Made by a program: the position numbers and the translations under genes
Shown here: in pieces, positions 2,386 to 4,938 of the stretch
Position numbering within the stretch: position 1 is the first letter of the stretch
Layout: each line of letters starts with the position of its first letter
Assembly: GCA_018263435.1 (NCBI GenBank)
Contig: JAANXD010000075.1
Span: forward strand, 1 to 64,000
DNA: 64,000 bases
Origin: Candidatus Scalindua arabica
Lineage (GTDB): Bacteria; Planctomycetota; Brocadiia; Brocadiales; Scalinduaceae
Direction of reading: 5' to 3'
Notes under the pieces: model-generated
Databases searched by the model: none
Seen by the model: the letters and a program-made list of their open reading frames with translations, nothing else
Told to the model about the DNA's origin: nothing

Positions 2386-3570
2386 CTAGGCTTGTTGTTT
2401 CTTTAATTCGTCTTCATAGAGGGGTGACATTTGCCAGCATTTGTTAATTACCTTGGGAAGTGTCTCCAGGAAATAATCAACGTCTTCTTCCGAATTATCT
2501 TTTCCAAGACTGACGGTAATTGAGCCATGGCATACGTCTGGTGGTACTCCAATAGCTGTAAGTACATGAGATGCCTGTAGGTCAGGCGAGCTGCAGGCAG
2601 AACCGCTGGCGATAGCTATGCCATTGTAATTTAGGAACAGGACGAGTGATTCGCCTTCCGCAAAAGATATCCAGAAGCTTACATGCCCGGGAAGCCTTTG
2701 TGTCAAGTGTCCTGTAAAATGCAGGTATTTGACTGTATCAGGAAGTGCTTTTATGATTTTGTCACGAAGTGGAGTGAGGTGTTCTATCCTTGATGTCATC
2801 TCGGTTTTGGCAAGCTCAGCTGCCTTGCCCATTCCAACAATCGCCGGTATATTATCTGTACCCGGCCTCAGGCCGCCTTCCTGTGCGCCTCCTTTAATTA
2901 TGGAAACAATTTCAGTTCCTTCTTTTACATATAGGGCTGCAATGCCTTTTGGGCCGTAAAATGTGTGCGATGTCAGAGTTAATGAATCTGCGCCAAGTTT
3001 CTGAACGTCCACAGGTATAACTCCTGCCGTTGCAACGGCATCGGTATGGAATATAATACCCTTTTCCTTCGTTATCTTTCCTATTTCCTCTATAGGCTGG
3101 ATTACACCTATCTCATTATTTGCATGCATAATTGAAACAAGGAACGTATCCTTGTTTATGGATTTGGCAACATCTTCAGGGTCTATCAGGCCATCTTCGT
3201 TTACCTTTATATATGACACCCTGAAACCATCTTTCTCCAGTTCTCGTGCAGTGTATAAAATTGAGTAATGCTCAACTTCTGAAATAATTATGTGTTTTCC
3301 TCTGTCTCTGTTTGCGAGGGCTAAACCCCTTAAAGCCAGATTGTTTGCTTCACTTCCCGTAAAGGTAAAGATTATCTCTTCGGGTTTGGCATTAATCAGG
3401 TCAGCGACCTTTGCCCTTGACTCGTCGACAGCTTTTTTAGCCTTGAGTCCATATGAATGGAGGTGGGAAGATGGGTTACCAAAATTTTCTGTAAAAAAAG
3501 GTAACATTTCTTCTACTACTCTTGGATCAGTAGGTGTCGTAGACATGTGATCCATATAAACTTTTCTCAT
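2386..3570 (-). CDS. Cysteine desulfurase (NifS/IscS) homologue lacking the PLP-binding lysine
   Basis: 394 residues, full length for class V aminotransferase-fold cysteine desulfurases, which take sulfur from cysteine for Fe-S and thio-cofactor assembly. Visible family features are the N-terminal YMDHMSTTPTDP, TGSEANN, His101, HANNEIG (Asn152), Asp177, RPGTDN and the active-site Cys326 in GSACSSPD. Two PLP contacts deviate. The lysine of the usual SxHKxYGPKG box is Thr203 (SHTFYGPKG, codon ACA at 2962-2964), and the Gln expected in DAVQxAG is Ala180 (DAVATAG). AAA to ACA is one substitution, yet the rest of the frame is intact and conserved. An archaeal IscS (Archaeoglobus fulgidus) is known to lack this lysine, so the protein may still work in a modified way or have become a non-enzymatic partner. 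It lies at the end of a leftward run of thiol-redox genes. Confidence 0.88.
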   Translation of the reverse strand: MRKVYMDHMSTTPTDPRVVEEMLPFFTENFGNPSSHLHSYGLKAKKAVDESRAKVADLINAKPEEIIFTFTGSEANNLALRGLALANRDRGKHIIISEVEHYSILYTARELEKDGFRVSYIKVNEDGLIDPEDVAKSINKDTFLVSIMHANNEIGVIQPIEEIGKITKEKGIIFHTDAVATAGVIPVDVQKLGADSLTLTSHTFYGPKGIAALYVKEGTEIVSIIKGGAQEGGLRPGTDNIPAIVGMGKAAELAKTEMTSRIEHLTPLRDKIIKALPDTVKYLHFTGHLTQRLPGHVSFWISFAEGESLVLFLNYNGIAIASGSACSSPDLQASHVLTAIGVPPDVCHGSITVSLGKDNSEEDVDYFLETLPKVINKCWQMSPLYEDELKKQQA

Positions 3571-3629
3571 TGTAAGTTTCCCTTCTGTGATTTAAAATAA
3601 CTGTGGCAAAGTCAATCTCAAATAGCCTA

Positions 3630-3735
3630 GGCGTCCCGCCTCGGTGCAACCTACGGTCAGGCAGGCCGCCTGTGGCGCCCCTTGGGGTAGCTTATAGGTC
3701 CGACTCGGTCGGGATGCCTGACCTATATTATAATT
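3630..3735. repeat. GC-rich intergenic repeat with short inverted arms
   Basis: The spacer between the desulfurase homologue and the small desulforedoxin-like gene holds a GC-rich block. It contains ggcaggc words and the near-palindromic pair taggtccgactcggtc / gggatgcctgaccta. It resembles the block at the left window edge. It may fold in RNA and separate the two transcription units, but no U-run makes it a clear terminator. Confidence 0.4.
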
Positions 3736-3739
3736 TATG

Positions 3740-3859
3740 TTAGTCCTGTAAAGTCATTGGCTGCCCGCAACACTCTAAGGTGCCGGCGCCTCCTTCTTTT
3801 ACCTCAACTATTGCGCCACATATATCACATTCATAAACTTCATTGGCTTCAGTTGTCAT
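3740..3859 (-). CDS. Desulforedoxin-like mini-protein (39 aa)
   Basis: A 39-residue gene too short for most gene callers. It is preceded by a strong ribosome site (ggagg, seven bases before ATG at 3859). The product has the desulforedoxin/desulfoferrodoxin N-terminal iron-site pattern: YECDICG early and LECCGQPM late, giving CxxC...CC with a glycine-rich GGAGT turn between. Such domains bind one iron by four cysteines and act as small electron carriers or as the first domain of superoxide reductase. Here the superoxide-reductase domain is absent. It lies 28 bases after the CcdA-like gene on the same strand, so it is probably the last gene of the thioredoxin-CcdA operon. Confidence 0.8.
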
Positions 3860-3887: not shown

Positions 3888-4595
3888 TTATACTAATAGT
3901 TTTCCTGCAGTTATCAGGAAATATTCTCCTGCTGCTATCATTAGCCAGCCAAAGAATTTCTTGATAATTATACTCCAATTTCCGGTCTTTGGCAGACTTG
4001 CCATCAAACCGGCAAACGTTCCAACAATTATTAAGAGTGTTCCCAGTCCTATAGAAAAAACAAAAAGTAAGCCTACACCGTAAGCAACATTTTGTTTCGC
4101 CGCAACATAAGTCAAGACAACACCAAGTACAGGCGCTGTGCATGGTGCGGCAACAGTTCCTGCAAGAAGTCCTACCAGAAATGCGCCGATGCGTCCTCCA
4201 GCTTTTTTGCCGGGTTGTCTGCTTGCTAAGAAAGAGGGAATTGGCAGTGTAAAGGCATCCAACATCGACAAGCCTAGAAAGATAAAGATATTGGCTACAA
4301 CAATGTAAAGTATGGGGTTTGTGCTGGCTGACCCAAAGAACTGTCCGGTCAAGGCCGCAAACGCTCCCAGTGCGGCATACGTAACTGCCATTCCTAATAC
4401 ATAAAAGAGAGAGAGGGAAAAGCCCTTCAGCTTGGAATCACCACTGCGGCCACCTATATAAGCGATCGTTATAGGTATCATCGGGTACACACATGGCGTA
4501 AAACTGGTGAGCACACCTCCCAGGAAAACCGCTATAAAAGCCAGAATAGGCGATGCAGCCAGGTATCCATCCAGGCCTTGTAGAAATCCATCCAT
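3888..4595 (-). CDS. ccdA: CcdA/DsbD-type thiol-disulfide transmembrane transporter
   Basis: 235 residues, almost all hydrophobic, matching the membrane domain of DsbD (CcdA family, six to eight helices). These proteins pass electrons from cytoplasmic thioredoxin across the inner membrane for cytochrome c maturation or disulfide reduction. The two redox cysteines sit in TPCVYPMIP (helix 1) and AAPCTAPVLG (helix 4), each in the classic proline-rich setting. There is no periplasmic alpha or gamma domain, so this is the short CcdA form. Thioredoxin lies 13 bases upstream and is the expected electron donor. The multiheme cytochrome encoded at 21.5-22.9 kb would need such a system. Confidence 0.9.
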   Translation of the reverse strand: MDGFLQGLDGYLAASPILAFIAVFLGGVLTSFTPCVYPMIPITIAYIGGRSGDSKLKGFSLSLFYVLGMAVTYAALGAFAALTGQFFGSASTNPILYIVVANIFIFLGLSMLDAFTLPIPSFLASRQPGKKAGGRIGAFLVGLLAGTVAAPCTAPVLGVVLTYVAAKQNVAYGVGLLFVFSIGLGTLLIIVGTFAGLMASLPKTGNWSIIIKKFFGWLMIAAGEYFLITAGKLLV

Positions 4596-4608: not shown

Positions 4609-4938
4609 TTATAAAAGCACTTCAAGTTTTTGTTGAAGTTTACTCTTGCTTGTTACTCCCACCAAAGTTTCCTTTACTTCGCCATTGCTGAAGATTATGA
4701 GTGTGGGTACAGACATAACACCATATTTTACTGCGAGATCTTTGTTTTCTTCTACATCTATATCGACTTTTGCAAACTTGACCTTCCCATCAAATTCCTG
4801 AGCTAATTCACCCAGGATAGGAGTTTGCGTTTTGCATGGGCCACACCAATCTGCATAAAAGTCTACCAGGACGGGTGACCCAGCTTGAATGACAGATTGC
4901 TCAAAATCTTCGCTAGTTACTGCCGTTAAGTTTGACAT
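4609..4938 (-). CDS. trxA: Thioredoxin
   Basis: 109 residues with the canonical WCGPC active site (about residues 31-35) in the context VDFYADWCGPCKTQTPIL, the cis-proline in MSVPT and the terminal alpha-4 helix. It reduces disulfides in the cytoplasm and can feed electrons to the CcdA-like protein encoded next. There is no signal peptide. The ribosome site aaaggag lies upstream of ATG 4938, inside the end of the preceding small gene, which suggests tight coupling in one operon. Confidence 0.95.
   Translation of the reverse strand: MSNLTAVTSEDFEQSVIQAGSPVLVDFYADWCGPCKTQTPILGELAQEFDGKVKFAKVDIDVEENKDLAVKYGVMSVPTLIIFSNGEVKETLVGVTSKSKLQQKLEVLL

Follow-up and report, generated by a model that had tools for sequence, protein, structure and literature searches.

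The gene considered here lies on the minus strand of the window, the 64,000-nucleotide stretch of DNA that was analyzed, in the anammox bacterium Candidatus Scalindua. It occupies 2386..3570 and encodes a 394-residue protein that the initial annotation had described as a NifS/IscS homologue, a description confirmed by the open reading frame, by profile matches including PF00266 (aminotransferase class V, 269.6 bits) and by a predicted IscS fold. The AlphaFold2 model has a mean pLDDT of 90.8 and matches IscS structures with TM-scores of 0.91–0.95, the best being NFS1, E. coli IscS and Archaeoglobus fulgidus IscS; the nearest solved structures include both the wild type and the D199K mutant of the A. 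fulgidus protein. The IscS-type C-terminus is retained. Scores against the equivalog models fall below their cut-offs, at 485.5 bits for NifS (TIGR03402, cut-off 530.75) and 406.5 bits for IscS (TIGR02006, cut-off 643.2). Measured against a type I cysteine desulfurase, the protein therefore has the fold, the sequence relationship and the loop cysteine, and lacks the PLP-binding lysine, the carboxylate-binding arginine and an equivalog-level score.

The gene order in Scalindua is trx-ccdA-desulforedoxin-iscS, all read from the minus strand in the window. The thioredoxin gene (4609..4938) and ccdA, which encodes a CcdA/DsbD transmembrane domain protein (DsbD_TM, 3888..4595), were identified by profile and Pfam matches, and a 39-residue desulforedoxin-like open reading frame (CxxC...CC) lies at 3740..3859. 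It precedes the iscS gene in 12/12 Scalindua loci with that flank, and all three neighbors are thus as first proposed. One other genus of the family has trx directly before the gene and no ccdA. Neither iscU nor tusA is adjacent to the gene in Scalindua. The segment between the desulforedoxin reading frame and iscS (3571–3740) is GC-rich and inverted-repeat-like, is absent from the same gap in loci L117, L122 and L123, and looks like a small inserted repeat. On the other strand, an IS630-family transposase gene (1275–2195) adjoins iscS.

The residue changes center on the cofactor and substrate sites. Codon 203, read on the minus strand from 2964 to 2962, is ACA, one base from AAA, and places Thr at the site of the PLP-binding lysine, while codon 180 (3031..3033) is GCA and places Ala at the site of the PLP-contacting Gln; both substitutions had been noted from the sequence, and both were verified by codon reading and comparison with congeners or homologues. 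The accompanying claim that the rest of the enzyme is conserved holds for His101, Asp177, Arg235 and the loop cysteine Cys326 (SGSACSS, 2593..2595), which sits in a low-confidence, mobile loop of the model (residues 325–330). It does not hold for two further positions: codon 352 (2515..2517) is ACC, giving Thr in place of the substrate-carboxylate Arg, and codon 103 (3262..3264) encodes Ser in place of Ala, as is typical of lysine-less homologues. Arg352 aligns with Arg371 of a Thermococcus cysteine desulfurase, if a 20-residue offset to the chain numbering is taken to be a tag. That arginine holds the carboxylate of the substrate (PMC5426080), and distant type II enzymes have Arg at this position too.

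The substitution at residue 203 is a fixed feature of the gene. In the alignment with close homologues that had been called for, Thr203 is encoded by ACA in all 10 congeneric coding sequences compared, and the residue is Ser in two other genera, Pro in a third and Ala in a related family, so that Thr is common to the congeners and lysine is missing from the other genera examined. Pairs of Scalindua sequences give dN/dS values of 0.023–0.066, with no internal stops. The gene is under strong purifying selection, and since independent genomes agree, stops are absent and dN/dS is this low, sequencing error and private mutation are both rejected as explanations of Thr203. Besides this T203 member, Scalindua carries a second lysine-less protein, with Gln at 203, and an IscS that has the lysine. 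The Q203 protein, 57% identical to the first, is encoded in the window's own genome at G000:C47:22329-23486, after a uvrD-like helicase gene, and occurs in several congeners as well. The same genome holds a truncated, 220-residue IscS-like reading frame without the lysine region (G000:C77:23408-23956).

We then compared the protein with a homologue set of 216 distinct sequences, taken from the relatives or found by searching outward from other members (208 after removal of contained fragments). The lysine is missing in 84 of the 208. A position-by-position comparison of these lysine-less proteins (73 and 11 from two clades) with 104 lysine-bearing ones found only a handful of positions that separate the groups, and the clear ones, Gln180, His202, Lys203, Arg352 and Ala103, are PLP or substrate positions; weaker shifts occur at 11, 96, 286 and 321. 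Residue 203 varies among T, S, P, A, Q and D and is non-Lys in 84/84 lysine-less proteins. Gln180 accompanies Lys203 in 122 of 123 cases and is nearly always replaced by Ala when the lysine is absent, and His202 is variable and often lost. Position 352 is Arg in every lysine-bearing homologue (104/104) and in none of the lysine-less ones, which have mostly Leu, Thr or Val, and position 103 is Ser in 97% and 100% of the two lysine-less clades as against Ala in 92/104 lysine-bearing proteins. No lysine-less homologue that covers Cys326, His101 or Asp177 has a different residue there, and Arg235 is likewise invariant. The residues required for desulfuration have therefore been removed, while the cysteine that handles sulfur has been retained.

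In a tree computed without the trait columns, the bacterial lysine-less proteins (32 representatives, including the Scalindua gene) form one clade with support of 99/99. It spans anammox Planctomycetota, Nitrospirota, Nitrospinae, Aerophobetes, WOR-3 and Desulfobacterales. An Asp203 group, to which A. fulgidus IscS-2 belongs along with some Desulfobacterales genes, forms a separate clade among archaeal lysine-bearing proteins (100/99), and none of 200 bootstrap trees unites the two. A single loss shared with A. fulgidus is thus disfavored by the tree, though the AU test rejects it only marginally (p = 0.041). Both clades changed the same residues, losing Lys203 and Arg352, replacing Gln180 mostly by Ala and Ala103 by Ser, and the resemblance to A. 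fulgidus IscS is probably convergent, reflecting two independent losses. At loci L315 and L318, in relatives of the Desulfobacterales genome G045, the lysine-less IscS has Asp180 and an altered loop (STRSACAAG), and IscU is encoded upstream, not downstream.

The gene neighborhoods of the lysine-less proteins often include genes for sulfur carriers and Fe-S assembly. Among loci that were gathered by similarity and are not a random sample, tusA lies within 3 kb of 44/70 lysine-less genes as compared with 1/109 lysine-bearing genes, the single exception being the divergent neighbor of a tusA-dsrE-iscS(D203) cluster. The corresponding Fisher test (p = 2.6e-22) takes no account of kinship, and we place no weight on it: because the lysine was lost only about two independent times, the linkage represents two events rather than dozens, and two contrasts across independent losses put statistical significance out of reach. 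Nearby iscU genes were found at 57/82 lysine-less and 47/113 lysine-bearing loci, counts that still include a few duplicate loci, and Rrf2 regulators and DsrE-like proteins recur beside the lysine-less genes. Within the Scalindua subclade, the sister family f3 and one Nitrospinae genome show an iscS-iscU arrangement. A Uma2-like gene, named by eye, stands between iscS and iscU in several genomes of family f5 (L142, L137, L138, L139, L140). Co-divergence with IscU was sought by tree, for which the 134 alignment columns are too short, and a check of the TusA-binding face of E. coli (W45, E49, D52) did not discriminate, since most lysine-bearing relatives lack W45 as well.

The same partners can be followed at the level of genomes. 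Across the order, the TusA of the clade occurs in 27/30 genomes with a lysine-less IscS versus 1/9 without, and in that one genome iscU-tusA lies at a contig end. The window's own genome encodes, elsewhere (G000:C17), a TusA that is 65% identical to that of the clade. Most congeners have a lone iscU, with a product of 128–130 residues, away from the lysine-less gene, and NifU_N matches were obtained in 11/12 congeners, the exception being genome G008, which is 79% complete. A profile search of the window's own genome found no NifU_N protein. Given that 11 of 12 congeners have such matches, the missing IscU probably reflects an assembly gap, that is, lost sequence and not biology.

What does an IscS without its catalytic residues do? 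In A. fulgidus, an IscS without the lysine shows no desulfurase activity and contributes its cysteine as a ligand of the IscU [2Fe-2S] cluster (PMC7585200). With this precedent and the loss of Lys203, Gln180 and Arg352, the Scalindua protein is very probably not a cysteine desulfurase. We favor, with somewhat better than even confidence, a former IscS that now serves IscU in sulfur relay, as a cysteine-ligand partner, or both. Partnership with IscU in Fe-S assembly, including binding to it, is the likelier part of this proposal. The initial annotation had pointed to an archaeal IscS without the lysine, a comparison that stands, since the lysine-less state of A. fulgidus IscS is documented (PMC7585200) and this protein is among the nearest structures. 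It had also suggested either a sulfur-carrier or scaffold role or activity by another mechanism; the former survives, and the latter is disfavored because Arg352 and the PLP-contacting Gln are lost along with the lysine. A caution is that the pocket may still be able to bind PLP, PMP or another ligand, as the PLP-ring contacts Asp177 and His101 are invariant.

TusA and DsrE are carriers of sulfane sulfur. Because TusA does this and is the most specific neighbor of the clade, we tentatively propose, at slightly less than even odds, that it is the sulfur donor and that sulfur flows from it to the lysine-less protein. TusA, in some lineages together with a DsrE-like protein, would hand sulfane sulfur to Cys326, from which it would pass to IscU; alternatively, sulfur could enter as sulfide. 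Electrons or iron could come, in Scalindua, from the thioredoxin, CcdA and desulforedoxin encoded next to the gene.

Sulfide is the main rival to TusA as the source, and in other systems it suffices chemically. In its full form this alternative gives the protein a purely structural or ligand role, in which an (IscS-IscU)2 platform offers Cys326 as a cluster ligand, free sulfide is used with no persulfide, and the link to TusA belongs to other sulfur chemistry. We regard this as unlikely, though it is the strongest of the competing explanations: such a role has been proposed for A. fulgidus IscS (PMC7585200), in E. coli without iscS, IscU can assemble clusters from sulfide alone (PMC13015791), and SMS uses sulfide (PMC12192291), but the linkage to tusA and dsrE is left unexplained. 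Less probable still is a different PLP- or PMP-dependent enzyme that works without the lysine on a substrate other than an amino acid. Some DegT-family PMP enzymes do work without it, and the invariant Asp177, His101 and Arg235 and the fixed Ser103 indicate a pocket under selection; however, the loss extends to Gln180, Arg352 and frequently His202, the residue at 203 differs among members, and the loop cysteine is invariant even though such chemistry could dispense with it. An active desulfurase that uses another lysine or free PLP is highly improbable, for although Lys208 (YGPKG) is close by, many members of the clade have another residue there, ordinary desulfurases carry this lysine too, and the carboxylate-binding arginine is absent. 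Finally, a decaying paralogue or a sequence error, to which the second lysine-less paralogue and the lysine-bearing IscS of the same genome might lend some plausibility, has practically no standing, being refuted by concordant independent genomes, dN/dS of 0.02–0.07 and the absence of stops.

Taken more broadly, the relay or ligand role we favor may belong to a widespread branch of the ISC system that is free of desulfurase. At least two IscS lineages would have given up PLP and cysteine chemistry through shared substitutions and become a persulfide relay or ligand between TusA(-DsrE) and IscU, so that anaerobes could use sulfide or sulfane sulfur in place of cysteine to make their Fe-S clusters; Scalindua would have a pair of these proteins, one of them linked to thioredoxin, CcdA and desulforedoxin. 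We put this forward as a possibility with the odds somewhat against it. Lysine-less IscS had earlier been described from two archaea and could pass as a curiosity, and it now appears as a conserved bacterial clade. Our literature search, with most subscription papers outside its scope, returned no description of this clade or of its linkage to tusA. With its common residue signature and its tusA and iscU gene partners, the clade makes a testable case that IscU-based Fe-S assembly has an entry route independent of cysteine, and it suggests a functional misassignment wherever these lysine-less genes have been labeled 'cysteine desulfurase' automatically. Restoring the lysine alone would be an unfair test, because Gln180 and Arg352 are missing too.

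Among known systems, the closest is A. fulgidus IscS-2 (4EB5, 4EB7, 4HVK; D199K mutant 4R5F), in which the lysine is likewise lost (to Asp), the Gln site is Ala, the Arg352 site is Leu and the loop cysteine is kept. It has IscU as its partner, and its relatives encode tusA, dsrE and iscU next door. It differs from the Scalindua protein in having Asp, not Thr, at residue 203 and in belonging to a separate clade, and the Scalindua gene sits with trx-ccdA-desulforedoxin rather than with iscU. Methanosarcina acetivorans IscS1 (MA0808), also lysine-less and with an iscU neighbor (PMC7585200), is similar by description and is archaeal. Cysteine desulfurases of the NifS/IscS type, such as E. coli IscS, T. 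maritima NifS, NFS1 and MisS, share the fold, the loop cysteine, His101 and Asp177, and the solved ones are about 34–41% identical to the Scalindua protein in the structure search, but they keep the Lys, the Gln and Arg352, all three of which it lacks. The TusA/DsrE relays, gene partners of the lysine-less clade, would operate in the opposite sense: IscS of E. coli passes sulfur to TusA (PMC2854127), whereas in the route proposed here TusA would give it.
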